A DNA stretch of 43,845 bases from a virus. This document shows positions 2,609 through 26,296 of the stretch, one piece after another. The notes under the pieces were generated by a model, which worked only from the letters and a program-made list of their open reading frames with translations, was not told the DNA's origin and searched no databases. Location: positions 1 to 43,845 of the IMG/VR virus record IMGVR_UViG_3300036900_000192, one strand, 5' to 3'. How positions within the stretch are numbered: the first letter of the stretch is position 1; each line of letters opens with the position of its first letter. The translations under genes and the position numbers were made by a program.

Positions 2609-2658
2609 CTGGGCCTCTCCAGGTGATGTCTGGTTGTAGGTGAGGGCTTCGCCCCCGG

Positions 2659-2690
2659 GACGTCAGGTTGGTTCGCGCCGACCTGGCGTC
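2659..2690 (-). promoter_or_regulatory. imperfect stem-loop in the leader of the DUF2637 gene
   Basis: GACGTCAGGT (2659-2668) pairs with ACCTGGCGTC (2681-2690) with one mismatch around a 12-base loop, 50 bases before the DUF2637 start. It could be an operator or an RNA leader hairpin. A smaller hairpin GGGC-TTC-GCCC lies at about 2644-2654. Confidence 0.35.
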
Positions 2691-2709
2691 CCGCCGTCAT
2701 TTCAGGCGG

Positions 2710-2739
2710 TTGTCAAGTAAAAGGTATTCCAACTATGGC
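2710..2739 (+). promoter_or_regulatory. candidate promoter for the first GntR gene
   Basis: TTGTCA (2710-2715) and TATGGC (2734-2739) are separated by 18 bases, 41 bases before the GntR ATG. The TTGTCA reads as TTGACA on the other strand, so a divergent promoter for the minus-strand operon may share this region, though no good -10 is visible there. Confidence 0.4.
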
Positions 2740-2748
2740 AGGTACACC

Positions 2749-2764
2749 AGCTATGCCCTGACAC
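2749..2764 (+). promoter_or_regulatory. shared GntR operator candidate, copy 1
   Basis: AGCTATGCCCTGACAC matches AGCCATGCCCTGCCAC at 3080-3095 in 14 of 16 positions. Each copy lies about 10-17 bases before a GntR gene. Autoregulation or cross-regulation by the two GntR proteins is inferred. Confidence 0.45.
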
Positions 2765-2780
2765 GGCTAGCATTTCAGGG

Positions 2781-3041
2781 ATGCCTAGCATGATCATCAT
2801 GCAGCCGCTCGTCATCGATACCCGCAGTTCAGTGCCCAGTTACCGCCAGCTGGCGGACCAGCTGCGCGCTGCTGTCGAATCCGGGGAAATCGCGCCCGAC
2901 GAGCCGCTCCCGTCGCTCACCCGCATCCGCCAGGAGACCGGCCTCGCCGTCGGCACCATCCAGAAAGGCATCGGCGTCCTGGTCGACGACGGCTACGCCT
3001 ACACCGTCCCCGGCCGCGGCACGTTCGCCCGCCCTGCGTGA
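2781..3041 (+). CDS. small GntR-family transcriptional regulator 1
   Basis: The protein has 86 residues and is essentially only the winged helix-turn-helix DNA-binding domain of the GntR family: PSYRQLADQLRAAVESGEI, then LPSLTRIRQETGLAVGTIQK, then a wing ending GRGTF. No effector domain follows. Such short GntR proteins (KorA/KorSA type) repress transfer genes in Streptomyces plasmids and integrative elements. Its position divergent from the translocase operon fits that role. The ATG at 2781 is used; ATGs at 2790 and 2799 are alternatives. Confidence 0.8.
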   Translation: MPSMIIMQPLVIDTRSSVPSYRQLADQLRAAVESGEIAPDEPLPSLTRIRQETGLAVGTIQKGIGVLVDDGYAYTVPGRGTFARPA

Positions 3042-3070
3042 CCATGCGCTACCATGCGCGGCCATGGGCG
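3041..3070 (+). repeat. three tandem 10-bp repeats (RCCATGSGCN)
   Basis: ACCATGCGCT, ACCATGCGCG and GCCATGGGCG follow each other at exactly 10-bp spacing, immediately after the first GntR stop and before the second GntR gene. Copies would lie on one face of the helix, so this is a plausible regulator-binding array. Confidence 0.5.
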
Positions 3071-3079
3071 GGGACTCCC

Positions 3080-3095
3080 AGCCATGCCCTGCCAC
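3080..3095 (+). promoter_or_regulatory. shared GntR operator candidate, copy 2
   Basis: AGCCATGCCCTGCCAC is the partner of the 2749-2764 copy (14/16 identical), 9 bases before the second GntR ATG, where it could block transcription or translation. Confidence 0.45.
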
Positions 3096-3104
3096 TGTTG
3101 AGCG

Positions 3105-3347
3105 ATGCGATCCGTAGACCGCAGTTCACGAACCCCCCCGTGGCAGCAGATCGCCGCCGCGCTGCGCGAGGAGATCACCCGGGGCCGCTACGGGCCTGAC
3201 GACCGGCTCCCGTCCGTCGCCGAGACCGCCGCGGCGTGGAGCGTCAACCGCAAGACCGCGAACAAGGCACTGCTCGCCCTCGCCGCGGAAGGGCTGATCG
3301 AGACGGAAGAGGGCATGGGCTACTACGTCAGGCCGGATGTGTCATAG
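3105..3347 (+). CDS. small GntR-family transcriptional regulator 2
   Basis: The protein has 80 residues and is again only the GntR winged-helix domain: PPWQQIAAALREEITRGRYG, LPSVAETAAAWSVNRKTANKA, and a wing ending GMGYYVRP. It is related to its upstream neighbour and may be an old duplication. Its stop codon lies inside the left arm of the predicted attP. It could regulate the integrase, the transfer operon, or both. Confidence 0.8.
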   Translation: MRSVDRSSRTPPWQQIAAALREEITRGRYGPDDRLPSVAETAAAWSVNRKTANKALLALAAEGLIETEEGMGYYVRPDVS

Positions 3348-3385
3348 GCCGCAGGTCGCTGGAACGACGCTCCGGATATGACACA
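3338..3385. other. attP: predicted attP for the serine integrase
   Basis: TGTGTCATA (3338-3346) and TATGACACA (3377-3385) are perfect 9-bp inverted arms around 30 bp. Within the spacer, GTCG and CGAC also mirror each other, so about 16 of 24 positions match between half-sites. The dyad centre falls at 3361/3362, where the bases are GG. Serine integrases recognise about 50-bp imperfect dyads, usually beside int with a 2-bp crossover core. This site ends 8 bp before the integrase start. The assignment is inferred. Confidence 0.65.
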
Positions 3386-3393
3386 CTTAGCCT

Positions 3394-4878
3394 GTGGCTA
3401 CCGGGACATCTGATGAATGGCTGTTGTACCTGCGTAAGAGCGTCGGCTACGCGGGCATAAGCCGCCAGCGCGCCAGCACCACGGACCACCTGGCCCGCCG
3501 CGGCGGTACCGTGGCGGCCGAGTTCTCCGACTCCGACCGCACCGCGTTCCGGTCCATCCGCGACGACATCGACGCCCCGATGCCCTACCGGCCGCGGTTC
3601 GCCGCGATGCTGGAGGAGATGGCGCGGCGTCCCGGCGTCGGCGTCGCCGCCTGGCACGCCGACCGGCTCGGCCGTGACCCGGAGGCGACCGAGATCCTGA
3701 TCCGCGCCTGCCGCCGCGGCGGCCACCTGATCAGCACCACCCGCGGCGGCGACTACGACGTCACCACCGCCAACGGGCGCAAGCACCTGCGGGACGACAT
3801 CAACGCGGCGACCCACGAGGTTGACCACAACACCGAGCGGCTGGTGGAGGCCAAGGCGGAGTACGCGGCGGAGGGCCGCTACCTGGGCGGCCTGCGGCCG
3901 TTCGGCTGGCGGACGACCGGGGAGCCCGGCGTCCTGGAGCTGGACGAGGCGGAGGCGGAGGCGGTCCGGAGGGCGTGCGGCGAGCTGCTTGCCGGGACGG
4001 CGGTCCGGGCGATCGCGCGGCAGTGGAACGAGGCGGGGCTGACCGGGACGGGCGGCGGCCGGTGGACGACCAGCACCGTGCACAAGGTGCTGTCGCGGCC
4101 GCGGAACGCCGGGCTGGCCGAGCACCGCGGGCGCGTCTTCGCCGTCGACGGCGGGGTGAAGTGGCCGGCCATCCTCGACGAGGAGACGTGGCGGGCCGTC
4201 GCCGCGGTGCTGTCCGACCCGGGGCGGCGGTCCAACCACGGCGGGACGGCGCCGTCTCACCTGCTGTCGGGCATCGCGCTGTGCGGCGGCTGCGGGCTGG
4301 CCGTCGTCGCCGGGAAGTCGGCGGACGGGACGCCGCGCTACCGGTGCTCGCGGCATTCCCGCGGGCTGCCGCGCCGCCCGGGCCCGCACGCCTCGCGGTG
4401 CGCCGCCGACGTCGACAGGCTCATCGCGTACCTGGCCGTGGGGCGGATGAAGCGGGACGACGCCGCGAGGCTGCTGCGGGAGGACCGCGGCGGGGAGCGC
4501 CCGGCGCTGCTGGCCCGGCGCGCTGTGCTGGAGGCGCGCAAGGCCGAGCAGTGGCGCCTGTACCAGGCCGGGGTGATCGACGACCTGGAGCTGGCGGACG
4601 GGCGCCGGCAGGTCCGTGAGGGCCTGGCGGACGTGGAGGCGCAGCTGCGGGCGATCGAGGCCGGGGACGTGATCGCGCCGTTCCTGGGCGACCCGGAGGG
4701 CACGTGGCGGCGGGCGCCGCTGGAGCTGAAGCGCGCTGTCGTCTCCGCGCTGATGCACGTGACCCTCATGCCGGGGGCGAAGTTCTCCCGGCCGCCCGGC
4801 TGGAAGCAGGGTGACGGGCAGTTTGACCCGCGGCTGGTCGACGTGCGGTGGGCGCGGCGGCTGCCGTCTGACGGCTAG
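3394..4878 (+). CDS. int: large serine recombinase (phage integrase)
   Basis: The 494-residue protein starts at GTG 3394. The N-terminal catalytic domain carries YLRKS, with Arg14 and the probable nucleophile Ser16, and a DRLGRD motif near residue 89. A recombinase domain follows (about 165-270), then a zinc ribbon with Cys297, Cys300, Cys318 and Cys336, and then a helical region of the kind that forms the coiled coil controlling direction. It would join attP to a chromosomal attB. Its stop shares CTAG with the opposing gene. Excision would need a directionality factor, which I cannot identify. Confidence 0.93.
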   Translation: MATGTSDEWLLYLRKSVGYAGISRQRASTTDHLARRGGTVAAEFSDSDRTAFRSIRDDIDAPMPYRPRFAAMLEEMARRPGVGVAAWHADRLGRDPEATEILIRACRRGGHLISTTRGGDYDVTTANGRKHLRDDINAATHEVDHNTERLVEAKAEYAAEGRYLGGLRPFGWRTTGEPGVLELDEAEAEAVRRACGELLAGTAVRAIARQWNEAGLTGTGGGRWTTSTVHKVLSRPRNAGLAEHRGRVFAVDGGVKWPAILDEETWRAVAAVLSDPGRRSNHGGTAPSHLLSGIALCGGCGLAVVAGKSADGTPRYRCSRHSRGLPRRPGPHASRCAADVDRLIAYLAVGRMKRDDAARLLREDRGGERPALLARRAVLEARKAEQWRLYQAGVIDDLELADGRRQVREGLADVEAQLRAIEAGDVIAPFLGDPEGTWRRAPLELKRAVVSALMHVTLMPGAKFSRPPGWKQGDGQFDPRLVDVRWARRLPSDG

Positions 4879-5180
4879 GACGCGGTGAAGCTCTTGCCGT
4901 CCGGGGAGACGGTGACCGTGTACGCGCCGGAGGTGCCGCCGAGGAAGTAGACGAAGCACATGTAGGTCCCGGTGTAGGTGTTCCTGGCGCACGAGGCGGT
5001 GTCGGAGTGCTCGCGCGCCTTCATCGCCTGGGCGAGCTGAACCGGGTCGCGGTAGTCGGAGTGCCCCGGGGTGATCCCGGGGACGGAGACGCCCGCGGCC
5101 GGCAGGACCGCCCGCAGCACTCCCCACGCGATGAGCACGGCGGCTGCGATGAGCGCGACGGGAATCCAGCGACGGCGCAT
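4875..5180 (-). CDS. small single-span membrane protein with two-Cys extracellular domain
   Basis: The 101-residue reading from ATG 5180 gives MRRRWIPVALIAAAVLIAWG, a positive N-terminus and one membrane span or signal anchor, then an exported domain with CARNTYTGTYMC, where two cysteines could form a disulphide. The shape recalls DUF4333-like actinobacterial surface proteins, but I do not claim that family. The palindrome CTAG at 4875-4878 gives both this stop and the integrase stop. It sits beside the lysogeny genes, so a role in the lysogen (for example exclusion) is possible. Confidence 0.6.
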   Translation of the reverse strand: MRRRWIPVALIAAAVLIAWGVLRAVLPAAGVSVPGITPGHSDYRDPVQLAQAMKAREHSDTASCARNTYTGTYMCFVYFLGGTSGAYTVTVSPDGKSFTAS

Positions 5181-13968: not shown

Positions 13969-14133
13969 CTAGGCGTCTGTCTTGCGCGGCGGCGTGGCCA
14001 CGTACCGCTTCAGGTACGCCACGATCACGCCGGTCAGCGTCCTGCCCTCGGCTGCCGCCTTGGCCTGAGCGGCACGCCACAAGTCCGTGTCTACGCGGAT
14101 CGCGCGGTTCGGCGTCTTCGGCTTGTTGGGCAC
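13969..14133 (-). CDS. ribbon-helix-helix regulator
   Basis: The 54-residue reading starts at GTG 14133: MPNKPKTPNRAIRVDTDLWR, then AAQAKAAAEGRTLTGVIVAY. A beta strand (RAIRVD) followed by two helices is the RHH/Arc-type DNA-binding fold. It is divergent from the replication initiator, and palindromes between them fit RHH operators. No toxin gene accompanies it, so it is more likely an autoregulated repressor of the replication genes than an antitoxin. Confidence 0.65.
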   Translation of the reverse strand: MPNKPKTPNRAIRVDTDLWRAAQAKAAAEGRTLTGVIVAYLKRYVATPPRKTDA

Positions 14134-14148
14134 ACGGCGAATCGTACC

Positions 14149-14223
14149 CGGTGCATGTGCGCCCTGTCGTGTCTGAGTTGCCTGGTGCATGTACACCAGA
14201 GTAGCTTGGTGTATGTACACCAG
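14149..14223. promoter_or_regulatory. RHH operator cluster
   Basis: CTGGTGCATGTACACCAG (14182-14199) and TTGGTGTATGTACACCAG (14206-14223) are palindromes whose starts are 24 bp apart. A weaker relative, CCGGTGCATGTGCGCCCT, lies at 14149-14166. The cluster fills the gap between the RHH gene and the replication initiator, so both could be controlled here. Confidence 0.6.
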
Positions 14224-14271
14224 GCAAGTTGAGGCTTGGTCCGGAGGGACGAGGGAGACGGGAAGGCGTGG

Positions 14272-15084
14272 ATGGCAACCGGCGCGGCGAAATTGGCTTG
14301 GGAGAACTCGCGCGCCCAGAACGGATCACTGCTTCTCGTAATGGCGATCGCATTCGAGCTTGAGGCTAAGGGGAATTGCATCATGACCGTCGCGGAACTG
14401 GCCGGAAAGGCGCGGCTAAGTGAGCGCGCCGTTCAGGCTGCGACCGTGGACCTGACCAAACTAGGCGAACTGACGGTCACGCGGCGTGCCGAAGGGCACC
14501 GGAACGGCTACGCGCTGTCGATGCTCAGGGGTGCAGAATCTGCACCCCTACCGGCTGGTAGCCCCGCAGAATCTGCACCCCCGCAGATTCTGCACCCCGC
14601 AGAATCTGCACCCCTCAAACCGAAAGCTGCCGGTCAAGCCAGGGGCGCAAAATCTGCACCCCTCGAAATCTCCGACATGTTTGTAGTTAGTACAGGTAGT
14701 CATGTGGCTGAGGTTAAAGACGTGCCGGCAAAGCCGCCACGGCGCCGAAGCGACGGGCGCGAAGACGTCGACCGGCTCTGCAGCCACCTCGCCGACCGCA
14801 TCGCGGCCAACGGCTGCAAGCGCCCTAATCCCAATCAGAAATGGCGCGACGCCGCACGGCTCATGCTCGACGCCGACGGCCGCACCGAAAAGCAGGTGCA
14901 CAACATGATCGACTGGTGCCAGGACAGCGAATTCTGGCGCGGCAATATCCTCTCGATGCCAAAGCTCCGCGAGAAATACGACCAGCTCAAAATGCAGGCA
15001 ATGCGCCCCGCAAGGCAAGCGAACGGGAACGAGAACCTCGGCTACGTCGCCGCCTTCCTCAAGAGAAACGGAGCGGGCGAATGA
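14272..15084 (+). CDS. replication initiator with internal origin (lambda O-like)
   Basis: The 270-residue protein starts at ATG 14272; GGGAGACGGGAAGG lies upstream and a GTG at 14236 is an alternative. Residues about 10-85 form a winged-helix DNA-binding domain (IMTVAELAGKARLSERAVQA). Residues 86-131 are encoded by iterons and repeat AESAPL. The C-terminal part (150-260, EKQVHNMIDWCQDSEFW) matches helicase-recruiting domains of phage initiators. It probably binds the iterons inside its own gene and loads host DnaB with the next gene's product. No phage helicase or polymerase is encoded. Confidence 0.75.
   Translation: MATGAAKLAWENSRAQNGSLLLVMAIAFELEAKGNCIMTVAELAGKARLSERAVQAATVDLTKLGELTVTRRAEGHRNGYALSMLRGAESAPLPAGSPAESAPPQILHPAESAPLKPKAAGQARGAKSAPLEISDMFVVSTGSHVAEVKDVPAKPPRRRSDGREDVDRLCSHLADRIAANGCKRPNPNQKWRDAARLMLDADGRTEKQVHNMIDWCQDSEFWRGNILSMPKLREKYDQLKMQAMRPARQANGNENLGYVAAFLKRNGAGE
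14527..14720. other. ori: predicted replication origin: five iterons plus AT-rich segment
   Basis: GCAGAATCTGCACCCC occurs at 14533-14548, 14566-14581 and 14599-14614. Variants lie at 14583-14598 (T at the centre) and 14647-14662 (GCAAAATC...). Each core is a palindrome, GCAGA-A-TCTGC. The first copy extends to a 23-bp palindrome with 11-bp arms (14527-14549). The next 58 bases (14663-14720) are about 41% G+C by hand count, far below the surroundings, and could be the unwinding element. The layout matches lambda's origin inside gene O. Confidence 0.72.
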
Positions 15085-15906: not shown

Positions 15907-16238
15907 GCGAGGAATACACCGTCGCGGATTACATGATCCGCGAGCAGGCCGCAACACGTCACCGCGCCGTGGCCGATGTCGTGCAGTGGTTCGGCTTCAG
16001 CCACCTGCCTACCGGGCTGCCGCGCGGCGTCGCCGAGCGGTGCGCCGAGCTGGCCAGCAGCATCCTCGACGTGATCCCGGTTGACGACCCTGAGCTGACG
16101 CGCGGCCTGTCGGCGCTGGTGCAGGTCAAGGATCACTTCGTGCGGGCCGCGATCGTCGCGCAGCGCGAGGCCGCGAGCAGTGCCCGCGGCGCCCTGGACG
16201 CGCAGAGCCTCCACGACTCGCCCGGCGAGGACCTGTGA
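15903..16238 (+). CDS. possible Acb2/Tad1-like anti-defence protein
   Basis: The protein has 111 residues and is all helical. The segment from about residue 28 (WFGFSHLPTGLPRGVAERCA, then ELASSILDVIPVDDPELTRG, then LVQVKDHFVRAAIVAQ) resembles the small helical-hairpin proteins of actinophages related to Acb2/Tad1, with the final helix pattern L-x3-K-(D/E)-x3-R-A. Acb2/Tad1 proteins soak up cyclic nucleotides used by CBASS and Thoeris immunity. The resemblance is from memory of the family pattern. If wrong, this is simply an unknown helical early protein. Confidence 0.42.
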   Translation: MSEEYTVADYMIREQAATRHRAVADVVQWFGFSHLPTGLPRGVAERCAELASSILDVIPVDDPELTRGLSALVQVKDHFVRAAIVAQREAASSARGALDAQSLHDSPGEDL

Positions 16239-17035
16239 GCGCCGCCGCGCCAGGGCAGGCGAGCGCGGGACGGTGGTTTCACCTCGGCTGCGGCGGAACG
16301 GTCACCTTCGACATCTCAGGCGGATGGTGCGGCGTGTGCGAAGCCGAAGGGCTGAGCGACGGCGACTACGCGCAGCAGGGACTATCACCTGAGGCCGAGC
16401 GCGACTACGCCGAGTTCTCCGCATGGTGGCAGGCCAAGGGCTACCCGGACGGCATCTCGCTCGACTTCAGCGACGCCCGCGACGCCTTCGCCTCCGGGAT
16501 GCGGGCCGCGCGAGCCATCGCCGCGCGGGAGCCGGACGCGGGCACCACCGCCGCCCAGTGGCGCCAGGGCCGCAGTCAGCCCCGCAACGTCTACGCCCGC
16601 ACCGGCGGCGACTGGACCGGCGACCAGCTCATCGGCCACTTCGACACGGACGAGCTCGCCGCAGAGGCCTGCCGGGCGCACAACAGCGCGCGGGAGCCGG
16701 ACGCGGCGGACGGCAATGCGCCCGAGCTGCGGATCACCGACTGCAGCGCCCACGACGACGCCCTGCACATCCAGATCAACACCGGCCATAACTGGCTCTG
16801 CGCGGTCGCGCTGGCGTCGATCCTCGCCGAGTACGAGCCGCAGCCCGAAGAGCCGCAGCCCGAAGAGCCGCAGCCCGCGCCCGGGCTGGCCGCCAGGTAC
16901 GACCGGCTCTACGCCGGCATGACCAGCATCGCCGAAGGACTCGAGCAGCGCGCCGACGTAAACCGGCCGTCCAAGGTCACCGAGATCTGCGACGGCATCG
17001 CCGCGTCGCTCCGCAAGCTGCTGGAGCGCAAGTGA
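16235..17035 (+). CDS. 266-residue modular early protein with EPQPE repeats
   Basis: GTG 16235 overlaps the previous stop. An N-terminal zinc-ribbon-like part (LGCGGTVTFDISGGWCGVCE) is followed by a mixed domain with two REPDA segments, and then a tandem repeat EPQPEEPQPEEPQPA from 15-bp DNA repeats at about 16836-16880. The C-terminus is a helix of about 55 residues. It looks assembled from pieces; function is unknown. Confidence 0.55.
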   Translation: MSAAAPGQASAGRWFHLGCGGTVTFDISGGWCGVCEAEGLSDGDYAQQGLSPEAERDYAEFSAWWQAKGYPDGISLDFSDARDAFASGMRAARAIAAREPDAGTTAAQWRQGRSQPRNVYARTGGDWTGDQLIGHFDTDELAAEACRAHNSAREPDAADGNAPELRITDCSAHDDALHIQINTGHNWLCAVALASILAEYEPQPEEPQPEEPQPAPGLAARYDRLYAGMTSIAEGLEQRADVNRPSKVTEICDGIAASLRKLLERK

Positions 17036-18802: not shown

Positions 18803-19147
18803 ATGACAACTGCCAAGGTCACCCTGATCATCGACAGCGCCGACGCCACGGGCACCCTCCTCACCCGCGGCGCTATCCGGATCATCCCTTCCCAGCGGGT
18901 CAGCGACACCGCAGACGGCCTGCTGGTGGAGACCGCGGCCGTCCGCGTGCCGCTCACCGGCTGCGGCACGGCGCCCAGCGTGAACCTGTTCCCGAATGAC
19001 CTCATCGGCCCGCAGGGAGTCAGCGCGCCCGACTGGTCGTACACCATCCACTACGACAGCTGCCCCGGCAACCCGCAGCCCTGGTCATTCCACCTGCTGA
19101 GCGCCGGCGGCAGCACGCAGCGGCTGTCGTCGCTCACCGCCTTGTGA
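18803..19147 (+). CDS. virion-type beta domain protein
   Basis: The protein has 114 residues; GGAGGTGA lies 7 bases before the ATG. The pattern GTLLTRGAIRIIPSQR, then VRVPLTGCGTAPSVNLFPND, then DWSYTIHYDSCPG and PWSFHLLSAGG matches a beta-sandwich module often found in actinophage tail or fibre proteins. It heads the glycosyltransferase cluster, so it may be a surface protein that is modified. That link is inference. Confidence 0.5.
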   Translation: MTTAKVTLIIDSADATGTLLTRGAIRIIPSQRVSDTADGLLVETAAVRVPLTGCGTAPSVNLFPNDLIGPQGVSAPDWSYTIHYDSCPGNPQPWSFHLLSAGGSTQRLSSLTAL

Positions 19148-20106
19148 CGGGAGTTCACTTGCGCATTGCCGTTACCGGCGCCGCCGGCTACATCGGCGGT
19201 CACCTGTGCCGGGAACTGACCGCCCGCGGCCATGAGGTCTACGCCATGGACAAGCGGTGGCGGGACGTCGCGGCAGGCGAGTACGAGACGTGGGGGTTTG
19301 ACCTCGCCGACGACGAGTCACGCAAGGTGTGGCTGGCCGTGCGCCCGGACGTGGTGGTGCACCTCGCGGCACTGTACGGCCGCGTCTGGGGTGAAGCCGA
19401 CCTGATCGCGACGGCGGCGCAGAACGCGGGCATCACAGCCGCCGTCGCCCGTGACACCGCCAAGGCCAGCGCGCGCCTGGTCTACGTCTCCTCCAGCGAG
19501 GTCTACGGGTCGGCCGCCGGCAGTCCCGGCGCGATGCTGGCCCCGCTGAACATGTACGGCCTGACCAAGAAGTGGGGCGAGGAAGCCGCGCGGCTCTACT
19601 GCCCGGACGGCCTCGTGATCGCCCGGCTGAACATGCCCTACGGGCCGCCCGTCACCGACCCGGAGCGCGGCACTTCCCCGCCGCACTCCGGCCGCGCCGG
19701 GCCGTCCGGCTACAACATGCTGCACACCTTCCTGTGGCAGGCCGCCAACGGGCTGCCCGTCACGGTGCACCGCGGCGCCGAGCGGTCCATGACGTGGATC
19801 GGCGACGCCGTCGCAGGCCTCGCGCAGCTCACCGAAACAGAGGGGCTCAGCTGGCCGGCCTGGGACGTGTGCCGCGACGACGACTACCGCAGCGTGGCCG
19901 ACATCGCCGCCCTCGCCGTGAAGCTCGCCGGGTCGCAGTCGGAAGTCCGCGAAGTGGAGATGCCGGAAGGGATCACCCCGCGTAAGCGCCTCGGCTCCTC
20001 GCCGCTGCGCCACCTCGGCTGGGAGCCGAAGGTGAGCCTTGAGGACGGCATGGTGATGTCGCTGCCGCACTTCGCCCGCTACGACGCCGGCGGCGTGTTC
20101 CGGTGA
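19144..20106 (+). CDS. NAD-dependent epimerase/dehydratase (extended SDR)
   Basis: The 320-residue reading starts at GTG 19144; a TTG at 19159 is also possible. The Rossmann motif GAAGYIGG starts at residue 12. The catalytic YxxxK is Tyr138 to Lys142, with SSSEVYG just before it. The fold fits sugar-nucleotide epimerases or dehydratases that use NAD. It probably prepares an activated sugar for the five glycosyltransferase-like genes that follow, all overlapping by a few bases. The exact sugar cannot be told. Confidence 0.85.
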   Translation: MTGVHLRIAVTGAAGYIGGHLCRELTARGHEVYAMDKRWRDVAAGEYETWGFDLADDESRKVWLAVRPDVVVHLAALYGRVWGEADLIATAAQNAGITAAVARDTAKASARLVYVSSSEVYGSAAGSPGAMLAPLNMYGLTKKWGEEAARLYCPDGLVIARLNMPYGPPVTDPERGTSPPHSGRAGPSGYNMLHTFLWQAANGLPVTVHRGAERSMTWIGDAVAGLAQLTETEGLSWPAWDVCRDDDYRSVADIAALAVKLAGSQSEVREVEMPEGITPRKRLGSSPLRHLGWEPKVSLEDGMVMSLPHFARYDAGGVFR

Positions 20107-20771
20107 CCCCGCTGCTGTCGGTGCTGATCGCGACCGTCCCGCACCGGGCGGAGAAGCTCGCGCAGCTGCTCGGCGTCCTGCTGCCGCAGGCTGAGAAGTG
20201 GCATTTCGAGGTGATCGGCCTGCGCAACGCCGGCGACAAGCCGCTCGGCGAGTACCGTGCCGCGCTGCTTGACGAGGCGCGCGGCACCTACGCGTGCTTC
20301 GTCGACGACGACGACACGGTCCCGGGCTGCTACGCCGCCGCGATCTTCAAGGCGGCCGTGAACAACCCGGACGTGATCGGGTTCGAGCAGCAGTGCAGCG
20401 GCTACGGCATGGCGGCGTCGCGCTGCTCGATCAGCCTCCGTTGGGTTAACCCGCCGCAAGAGGCCATCGCCGGGTGGTACCTGCGCAGCGTCTCGCACGT
20501 CTGCCCGGTCAGGACGGAACTCGCCCGCCAGGCACCGTGGACGTCGATGCTGCCGCACACCGGAGAGGACATGGACTGGGCGCGGCGCATGACGCCGCTG
20601 CTCAGGGACCGCGGCAGCAACGAGGCGTACATCGACCGGGTGATGTACCACTACCAGTGGACCGCGGCCGACAGCACGCAGTTCGGGATGCGCGACCGCT
20701 ACCGCGGCCACGAACCCGGCCCGCTGCCGTCGTTCCCGGCGCCGTTCAGGTGGCACGAGTGGTCCCGCTGA
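20103..20771 (+). CDS. GT2-like glycosyltransferase
   Basis: The protein has 222 residues. It starts LLSVLIATVPHRAEKL, typical of GT-A family 2 enzymes, and has a metal/nucleotide-binding cluster FVDDDDTVPGC near residue 62. GEDMDWARRM later in the chain resembles the acceptor-side ED motif. It would move a sugar from a nucleotide donor to an unknown acceptor. GTG 20103 overlaps the epimerase stop. Confidence 0.72.
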   Translation: MTPLLSVLIATVPHRAEKLAQLLGVLLPQAEKWHFEVIGLRNAGDKPLGEYRAALLDEARGTYACFVDDDDTVPGCYAAAIFKAAVNNPDVIGFEQQCSGYGMAASRCSISLRWVNPPQEAIAGWYLRSVSHVCPVRTELARQAPWTSMLPHTGEDMDWARRMTPLLRDRGSNEAYIDRVMYHYQWTAADSTQFGMRDRYRGHEPGPLPSFPAPFRWHEWSR

Positions 20772-23991: not shown

Positions 23992-24120
23992 GAGTGGTCA
24001 CGATCAGTAACCACCCCGGGGTTACCCCTCCCCCCTGCCAGCACCTTCACCGGCCTCGCATAGCACCTCGGCTTTTACGTACGTATCGTCACGTTTTCGA
24101 TTAACGGAAAGTAATCATCA
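23992..24120. other. intergenic segment, candidate packaging (cos) region
   Basis: GTAACC (24007-24012) and GGTTAC (24020-24025) are inverted around CCCCGGGG (24014-24021), then comes a C-rich stretch and the palindrome TACGTACGTA (24076-24085) within A/T-rich DNA. It lies between HNH and the small terminase, where cos sites are usual. No gene is seen. The last 60 bases could also hold a late promoter. Confidence 0.4.
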
Positions 24121-24477
24121 ATGAATGAGAAGCCGCCGACCGGGCTGGGCGCCAAGGCGCGCAAGTTCTGGCTTGCCGCGGTTTCGGAGTTCGGTTTCAG
24201 GCTTGACGAGCTGCGCGTGCTCGAGGACGCGTGCCGCGAGATGGACCTGATCGACCGGATGGAGAAGGAGCAGCGCGGCAGGCCCCTGATTGCGCGCGGC
24301 TCGCAGGGCCAGGAAGTGGCGGCGCCCCTGATCCAGGAGCTGAGGCAGCACCGGGCGACGCTGGCGCGGCTGCTGTCGCAGCTGGCGATCCCGGATGAGG
24401 GCGCCGAGGGCGGCGACGCGTCGCGGTCGGCGGCGGCCCGCGAGCTGATCATGGCCCGGTGGCGGCGTGGCTCATAG
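24121..24477 (+). CDS. terminase small subunit (P27-like)
   Basis: The protein has 118 residues. The pattern PPTGLGAKARKFWLAAVSEF, then LDELRVLEDACREMDLIDRM, fits P27-family small terminases, which recognise phage DNA and bring it to the motor. A helical middle and a basic C-terminus follow. The large terminase start overlaps its end by 11 bases. Confidence 0.8.
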   Translation: MNEKPPTGLGAKARKFWLAAVSEFGFRLDELRVLEDACREMDLIDRMEKEQRGRPLIARGSQGQEVAAPLIQELRQHRATLARLLSQLAIPDEGAEGGDASRSAAARELIMARWRRGS

Positions 24478-26296
24478 GCAGGCCGCGGACGACACCGCGG
24501 AGGTGACCGCGGCGGTCGTCGGCTGGTACCGCGGAGAGCTGGCCGAGCCTGCGCGGTTCCCGTGGTCGGGTTCGCGGGCGAGCTGGCGGGAGAAGCCGGG
24601 TTCTCCGCTGGTGCTGCCGGTGCCGGAGCTGATCGGGCCGAGCTGGCAGACGCGAGAGGGCCGCTGGCTGCTGCCGGAGTACAGCCTCGGGTGGGGGATG
24701 CTGGGCTGGTACGGGACGTGGCTGCAGTTGTCGCCGGGGGTTGCGTGGCGGCACACGCTTGAGCAGGCGCGGTGGACGCTGTGGTGGTACGCGGTTGACG
24801 GGCGCGGCCGGTTCACGCACCGGGACGCGGTTTTGCAGCGGCTGAAGGGGTGGGGGAAGGACCCGCTGGCGGCGGCTTTGTGCGCGGGGGAGATGCTGGG
24901 CCCGTGCCGGTTCGCCGGGTGGGATGCGGACGGCCAGCCGATAGGTGAGCCGCACCCGCAGCCGTGGGTGCAGACGGCGGCGACGTCGCTCGAGCAGACG
25001 AAGAACACGATGCTGCTGTTCCAGTACCTGTTCACCCCGGCGGCGGTCGCGAAGTGGCGTTTGCAGGTGCTGAAGGAGAAGGTGCACGGCGCAGGCGGGG
25101 CGCTGATCGAGGCGGTCACGTCGTCCCCGGCGACGCTTGAGGGCGCGCGGAGCACGTTCGTGCTGATGAACGAGACGCAGCACTGGAATGCGTCCAACTC
25201 GGGCCATGACATGGCGGACGTGATCGAGCGGAACGTGACGAAGAGCCCGGACGGGGCGGCGCGGACGCTGGCGATCACGAACGCGCCGATGCCGGGCGAG
25301 GACAGCGTGGCTGAGCGGACGCGGGACGCGTGGGAGCTGGCACAGTCGGGGAAGGCGGCGGATGTCGGCCTGATGTACGACTCGGTTGAGCCGCCGGCGG
25401 GGGCGCCGCTGCCGGAGGTCGGCAATGAGCAGGCTGAGGAGTTCGCCCGTGAGGTGATCCGGGCGGTGCGGGGTGACTCGACGTGGCTGGACGTGGACCG
25501 GATCTTGCAGTCGATGCAGGACGTGCGGAACGCGCCGAGCAGGTCGCGGCGGTTCTGGTACAACGAGCTCCATTCGCCGGAGGACGCGTGGTGCGCGCGG
25601 GCCGAGTGGGAGGCGTGCAAGGTCGAGGGCCTGGAGCTGGCTGACGGCGACTGGATTGTCCTGTTCGGTGACGGGAGCAAGAGCGACGACGCGACGGCGC
25701 TGGTCGGCTGCCGGATGGATGACGGTGCAGTGTTCCTGCTGGGCTGCTGGCAGCGCCCGCAGCACGCGAAGGACTGGCGGGTCGACCGGGCTGAGGTTGA
25801 CGGGGCGGTGACGGACGCGCACGGGCGGTTCCGGGTGTGCGGCTTCTTCTGGGACCCGGCGCCGGGCACCGATGAGGAGACGGGCGACCGCTACTGGGAC
25901 GATCTGGTGACGGAGTGGGCGCTGCGCTGGGGCGAGACGTACTTCACGAGGGCGAGCGATAAGCACGCGGTGAGCTGGCCGATGGACAAGAACCACCCGG
26001 CGAACGTGCGCGACTTCACCGTCGCGGCCGGACAGGGGCGGGCGGACGTGACGCGGCGCGACCTGCCGCACGACGGGAAGCGGCTGCTGCGGATCCACGT
26101 GTGCAACATGCGCCGGCGCCTGAACAAGTGGGGCGTCTCGGTTGGCAAGGAGCACCGTGAGTCGTCGGCGAAGATCGACGCCGGCGTGTGCGTGATCGGC
26201 GCGCGGATGCTGCGCCGCCGGGTGCAGCTGTCTAAGGAGTGGATGCGCGAGCTCCGTAAGGCGCGCGGTCAGGGAAGGGTGGTGGTTTTCCGGTGA
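24467..26296 (+). CDS. terminase large subunit
   Basis: The 609-residue protein starts at GTG 24467. The ATPase half has a Walker A-like GWGKD at residues 128-132 and a Walker B-like STFVLMNE near 230. The nuclease half begins around IVLFGDGSKSDDATA, with acidic residues that bind metal. It cuts and pumps the genome into heads through the portal. The long open frames on the opposite strand here are shadows. Confidence 0.88.
   Translation: MAHRQAADDTAEVTAAVVGWYRGELAEPARFPWSGSRASWREKPGSPLVLPVPELIGPSWQTREGRWLLPEYSLGWGMLGWYGTWLQLSPGVAWRHTLEQARWTLWWYAVDGRGRFTHRDAVLQRLKGWGKDPLAAALCAGEMLGPCRFAGWDADGQPIGEPHPQPWVQTAATSLEQTKNTMLLFQYLFTPAAVAKWRLQVLKEKVHGAGGALIEAVTSSPATLEGARSTFVLMNETQHWNASNSGHDMADVIERNVTKSPDGAARTLAITNAPMPGEDSVAERTRDAWELAQSGKAADVGLMYDSVEPPAGAPLPEVGNEQAEEFAREVIRAVRGDSTWLDVDRILQSMQDVRNAPSRSRRFWYNELHSPEDAWCARAEWEACKVEGLELADGDWIVLFGDGSKSDDATALVGCRMDDGAVFLLGCWQRPQHAKDWRVDRAEVDGAVTDAHGRFRVCGFFWDPAPGTDEETGDRYWDDLVTEWALRWGETYFTRASDKHAVSWPMDKNHPANVRDFTVAAGQGRADVTRRDLPHDGKRLLRIHVCNMRRRLNKWGVSVGKEHRESSAKIDAGVCVIGARMLRRRVQLSKEWMRELRKARGQGRVVVFR

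Follow-up and report, generated by a model that had tools for sequence, protein, structure and literature searches.

A candidate replication origin of palindromic iterons within the initiator gene of an uncultured phage

In bacteriophage lambda, ori is located in the middle of gene O, where each iteron is an inverted repeat and an AT-rich tract adjoins the array (PMC7466680). In SPP1, oriL lies inside gene 38 and combines direct repeats with an AT-rich unwinding element (PMC6316719). For the gene of mycobacteriophage RepA, the analogy to lambda has led to the suggestion that an origin lies within it or immediately upstream, and repeats were not found (PMC7157519). In the PLE satellites of Vibrio cholerae, for which RepA modules were swapped experimentally, iteron-binding domain and origin vary together, and replication is limited to cognate pairs (PMC8263062). 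The present analysis concerns a gene at positions 14272–15084 of a viral DNA of 43,845 nucleotides (IMG/VR record IMGVR_UViG_3300036900_000192, hereafter the window), which, as judged from the sequence, very likely encodes an O-type phage replication initiator and carries the origin inside its own coding sequence.

With lambda O/ori the locus shares a putative origin in the middle of an initiator-type gene, several inverted-repeat iterons and an adjoining AT-rich tract; the resemblance to lambda proposed in the initial annotation was borne out as a match of layout. However, the iteron sequence is a different one, a P-type gene was not recognised among the scanned window genes, and the window protein matches no Pfam family at E-values up to 1, including Phage_rep_O, and thus stands outside the Pfam family of lambda O. 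SPP1 gp38/oriL likewise displays repeats and an AT-rich element within the initiator gene, but SPP1 possesses a second origin, oriR, the loader gp39 and the helicase gp40, whereas the window contains neither a second array nor a DnaB gene. In PLE, the origin is intergenic. On anatomical grounds, the best reading is that the window origin would work like lambda ori or SPP1 oriL.

Iteron array and AT-rich stretch

The open frame extends from 14236 to 15084, with ATG 14272 as the probable start of the protein. Its match to the profile phrog_391 ('replication initiation O-like') covers the full length, with residues 5–253 aligned (E-value 2.3e-32); the same profile was matched by 18 of 18 relatives tested, and 14 of the 18 members of the relatives' alignment also match HTH_36 of Pfam. 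AlphaFold2 predicted a confident winged helix (residues 1–85, predicted local distance difference test mostly 92–97 up to residue 80) with the recognition helix at about residues 51–64, followed by a low-confidence linker (about residues 89–152), which holds the iterons and is probably disordered, and by a helical C-terminal domain (residues 164–244). The C-terminal part is matched by phrog_2514 'DnaD-like helicase loader' (residues 169–252, E-value 6e-24) and phrog_4880 'replisome organizer' (E-value 4e-18).

The array in the middle of this gene is composed of five copies of the consensus GCA(G/A)A(A/T)TCTGC-ACCCC between 14533 and 14662 (Table 1). The cores begin at 14533, 14566, 14583, 14599 and 14647, and none is found elsewhere in the 43.8 kb. 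Searching both strands for the 16-mer GCAGAATCTGCACCCC with up to three mismatches yielded seven matches against 0.70 expected, a number reached in none of 100 shuffles that preserved dinucleotides. The description of the array as five palindromic iterons needs qualification: all five copies are real, but most are palindromic only over the 11-bp core. Exact odd palindromes of 11 bp are formed by four of the cores, while in the fifth (GCAAAATCTGC) a single pair is broken, and a palindrome of 21 bp with one central unpaired base is restricted to copy 1. The middle copies bear an ACCCC flank on one side. Since this flank is one-sided the sites are directional, and all five point towards the AT-rich stretch. 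The core-to-core spacings amount to 33, 17, 16 and 48 bp; given that 17 and 22 bp are commonest in 78 non-redundant relatives, spacings of 16–17 bp are typical and 33 bp is about twice that distance.

The repeats had further been described as AESAPL units, which applies to two of the five copies; the other three deviate, one of them being read in a shifted frame (Table 1). A proline-rich linker with low confidence in the structural model would be compatible with a repeat selected as protein, that is, with a low-complexity AESAP/proline linker that became repetitive by chance. However, in 200,000 synonymous-codon resamplings of the array never more than two cores were retained, and the codon score of the iteron segment lies 10.4 standard deviations below synonymous resampling, with use of the genome-rare codons GCA (6% of Ala) and TCT (4% of Ser). 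The rest of the gene departs from genome codon usage less strongly (4.8 and 3.5 standard deviations), all codon figures being approximate, as the codon table was built from heuristically chosen open reading frames. Moreover, the same iteron DNA is read in three frames across relatives, giving AESAPL, PQNLHP and RRICTP. In the 78 non-redundant genes, frame 0 accounts for 229 sites, frame 2 for 84 and frame 1 for 43, and more than one frame is used in 61 of these genes. The occurrence of iterons in all three frames excludes a purely protein-level cause. A protein-level repeat, which was rejected on the three reading frames and the rare codons, is therefore next to impossible, and selection on the DNA of the repeats, as initially claimed, is supported by both comparisons.

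The stretch directly after the repeats, likewise recognised from the outset, contains 55% AT in 60 bp within a genome of 71% GC and ranks among the top 0.3% of windows. GC at its third codon positions is 0.37 compared with 0.90 expected (8.6 standard deviations). Among 75 non-redundant genes, the 40 nucleotides past the last iteron show an AT excess of 0.13–0.14 and a third-codon AT excess of 0.29–0.35; the AT excess is back to background by about 60–120 nucleotides. Upstream of the iterons a small excess is limited to the first 20 nucleotides. By position and composition, an unwinding-type tract thus adjoins an array that lies within the initiator coding sequence, as in origins of the lambda ori and SPP1 oriL kind.

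Alternatively, the repeats could serve as operators for autoregulation of the initiator, with the origin being located elsewhere. The winged-helix fold resembles transcription regulators, and binding alone would yield the residue-base association reported below. However, the sites are situated about 260 bp into the coding region and are followed by the AT-rich tract family-wide, a scan for consensus sequences detected no promoter-like site nearby, the protein family is annotated as replication initiators, and a separate operator-like pair is present on the 5' side of the gene. Operator function of the array is thus unlikely.

Table 1. Positions of the initiator gene, its predicted domains, the iterons and adjacent elements in the window
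Feature	Position	Strand	Remarks
Replication initiator gene, O-like	14272–15084	+	270 aa, start ATG 14272; phrog_391 match
N-terminal winged helix-turn-helix, putative iteron-binding domain	14272–14526 (residues 1–85)	+	AlphaFold2; recognition-helix columns vary with half-sites
Iteron 1	14528–14548 (core 14533–14543)	+	GGGGTGCAGAATCTGCACCCC; codes AESAPL
Iteron 2	14566–14581	+	GCAGAATCTGCACCCC; codes AESAPP
Iteron 3	14583–14598	+	GCAGATTCTGCACCCC; other frame, PQILHP
Iteron 4	14599–14614	+	GCAGAATCTGCACCCC; codes AESAPL
Iteron 5	14647–14662	+	GCAAAATCTGCACCCC, GGGG upstream; codes AKSAPL
AT-rich stretch, putative DNA unwinding element	14664–14720		Composition; same position AT-rich across family
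C-terminal helical domain, putative helicase/replisome recruitment	14758–15081 (residues 163–270)	+	phrog_2514, phrog_4880; common to Streptomyces and Gordonia phage initiators
Arc-like repressor gene	13969–14220	-	phrog_6506
Two near-palindromic TGGTGNATGTACACCA sites	14183–14198 and 14207–14222		Between initiator gene and divergent Arc-like repressor gene

Linkage of the iteron to the N-terminal domain

Searching viral contigs with a pattern of two iteron copies retrieved 52 other contigs. In nearly all of them the cores lie within the open reading frame of a helix-turn-helix initiator, almost always in its linker; L029 and L045, in which this frame was not recognised, were excluded from the set of relatives. 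The same iteron is found in Vibrio phage vB_VpM-pA2SJ1 (core GCAGAWTCTGC, as in the window), in a Massilia plasmid and, beside a DnaB gene, in a Streptomyces plasmid, and variants are present in Pseudomonas phages, the distribution spanning replicons from different bacterial phyla. Because 52 viral contigs, the Vibrio phage and the two plasmids share it, the iteron is not new, contrary to the initial annotation; a literature search that covered few subscription papers found no description of this iteron family. The Streptomyces replicon (L065, NZ_CP109133.1; region 2628–4984) is a linear 36-kb 'plasmid' in which the gene that carries these iterons adjoins DnaB, and may be phage-like.

In the closest relatives, the N-terminal domain is 45–48% identical to that of the window with the core unchanged, in agreement with the anticipated conservation of the iteron despite protein drift. 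The parts preceding the iterons form one single-linkage homology group of 48, compared with nine groups for the parts following them, although these nine may still hide very remote homology to each other. The O-like initiators of Pseudomonas phages MD8 and TC7 and of vB_VpM-pA2SJ1 belong to the same N-terminal family and carry iterons in the linker; those of the Pseudomonas phages, however, are variants of the GCAGATGCTGC type, and in MD8 and TC7 the C-terminal domains look different and gene P directly follows the initiator. The initiators of Streptomyces phages Austintatious and Alderaan and of Gordonia phage ClubL share 43–71% identity with the C-terminal domain of the window protein, but possess another N-terminal domain, and no such iterons are visible in the gene.

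When single proteins served as queries, the search of viral and genome contigs yielded C-terminal relatives only. Using narrower alignments as queries, 80 C-terminal and 80 N-terminal relatives were sampled independently of the iteron. C-terminal relatives with another N-terminus showed no such cores among the matches listed, the exception being L077, whose N-terminus is missing because the contig ends there. In the N-terminal relatives the iteron is often another one built to the same plan, G-N4-W-N4'-C followed by ACCCC, with GAACG, GCCAA, GCAAA, GACTT and more as half-sites, the range being limited to those detectable by an iteron caller that presumes a G...C-ACCCC frame. Sequence comparison across relatives thus links the iteron to the N-terminal domain, with half-sites varying with the recognition helix.

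Half-site base 2 is A in eight of nine genes with D51 compared with 3 of 69 others (Fisher 6e-8 for base 2 and residue 51), and base 3 is C in all four genes with R56 compared with none of 74 others (Fisher 7e-7 for base 3 and residue 56). Six of the eight most strongly associated columns belong to the recognition helix at identity cut-offs of 70–85%, and four of eight do so at 60%. The best tree shows several origins of the D51 and R56 states, but well-supported branches in it are few. Column 18 of the hidden Markov model, located outside the recognition helix, also ranks high in half-site association; this residue may contact DNA or may merely mark clades.

The palindromes could also act as RNA or single-strand hairpins, either in mRNA control or as a structure for single-strand initiation. 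Folding of the strand gave -75.7 kcal/mol compared with -42.6 kcal/mol for shuffles (z -8.4), and a 9-bp stem is possible within iteron 1 by itself. However, any palindromic array folds well, the ACCCC flank of the middle copies cannot pair within the copy, and the half-sites vary with the DNA-recognition helix of the protein. Hairpins were rejected on the asymmetry of the flank and on this variation, and are very unlikely to account for the array.

Lambda O binds its iterons through its N-terminal part, and the comparisons above point to the N-terminal winged helix as the probable iteron-binding domain of the window protein. A Foldseek search returned generic winged-helix matches only, none at E < 0.001. 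The first match, though weak (E 0.018), is the centromere-binding winged helix TubR, as might be found if the repeats formed a centromere-like partition or copy-control site. Such a function is extremely unlikely, given the serine-type integrase of the phage, the annotation of the family as initiators and the lack of a clear partition gene among the subset of window genes scanned.

One relative, L079 (match 1501–2268), is closely related to the N-terminal domain of L052 and to the C-terminal domain of the window protein. The repeat in its initiator gene is a wholly different one, coding for TPVKMTG units, and the recognition helix has changed to SDKGVRRS. To judge from its sequence, L079 exemplifies an origin switch that occurred in nature.

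Proposed mode of action

For replication from an origin within the initiator gene, the following order of events is proposed. The N-terminal winged helix would bind the five iterons, most likely as one dimer per 11-bp palindromic core, and the one-sided ACCCC flank would set the direction of the bound complex. This complex could then open the adjoining AT-rich stretch, and the C-terminal domain would bring in the host replicative helicase.

Several observations weigh against such an origin. A search for DnaB revealed no such gene in the window, and no helicase loader was identified among the window genes scanned. The lowest point of the cumulative GC skew is reached near 24 kb, where the late genes begin, and not near 14.6 kb, where a signal had been expected; the skew is not decisive for the start site. 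The residue-base association is gone at a 50% cut-off, at which 20 very distant sequences remain (none of the eight top columns in the helix), and a phylogeny-strict pair test of this association was not significant, with too few well-supported pairs.

In outline, an origin of this kind is ordinary and well supported by computation; the more interesting part is the result for the family. It seems rather likely that these genes represent a large, apparently undescribed class of initiators, each gene with its own sites, in which residues 51 and 56 set bases 2 and 3 of the half-site and the N-terminal domain together with the iterons forms a portable origin module, found on about nine kinds of C-terminal part in phages of different bacterial phyla. 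If so, the DNA specificity of a winged helix would be readable from the gene itself. Each of these genes contains both partners of a protein-DNA recognition pair, which makes them a natural data set on site choice by winged helices. The approach also offers a route from sequence to the origins of uncultured phages; in the present, probably actinobacterial phage, the likely origin is placed to within about 200 bp. Replication interference could arise between phages with a common iteron.

Phage context and neighbouring features

A temperate lifestyle and an actinobacterial host are probable for this phage: besides the serine-type integrase, the window encodes RecE, RecT, terminase, portal and major head proteins, the portal protein being nearest to those of Rhodococcus and Gordonia phages, and the genome has about 71% GC. 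The sharp turn of the cumulative GC skew at 24000–24500, where the late genes start with terminase, probably reflects gene content and not an origin. The two TGGTGNATGTACACCA sites upstream of the initiator gene look like operators for the Arc-like repressor. Nearly three perfect copies of a 15-bp unit, GAGCCGCAGCCCGAA, are located at 16835–16877 within the open reading frame 16235–17035. At 19144–20771, phage-borne sugar genes lie side by side, with matches of the nucleotide-sugar epimerase and glycosyltransferase types.
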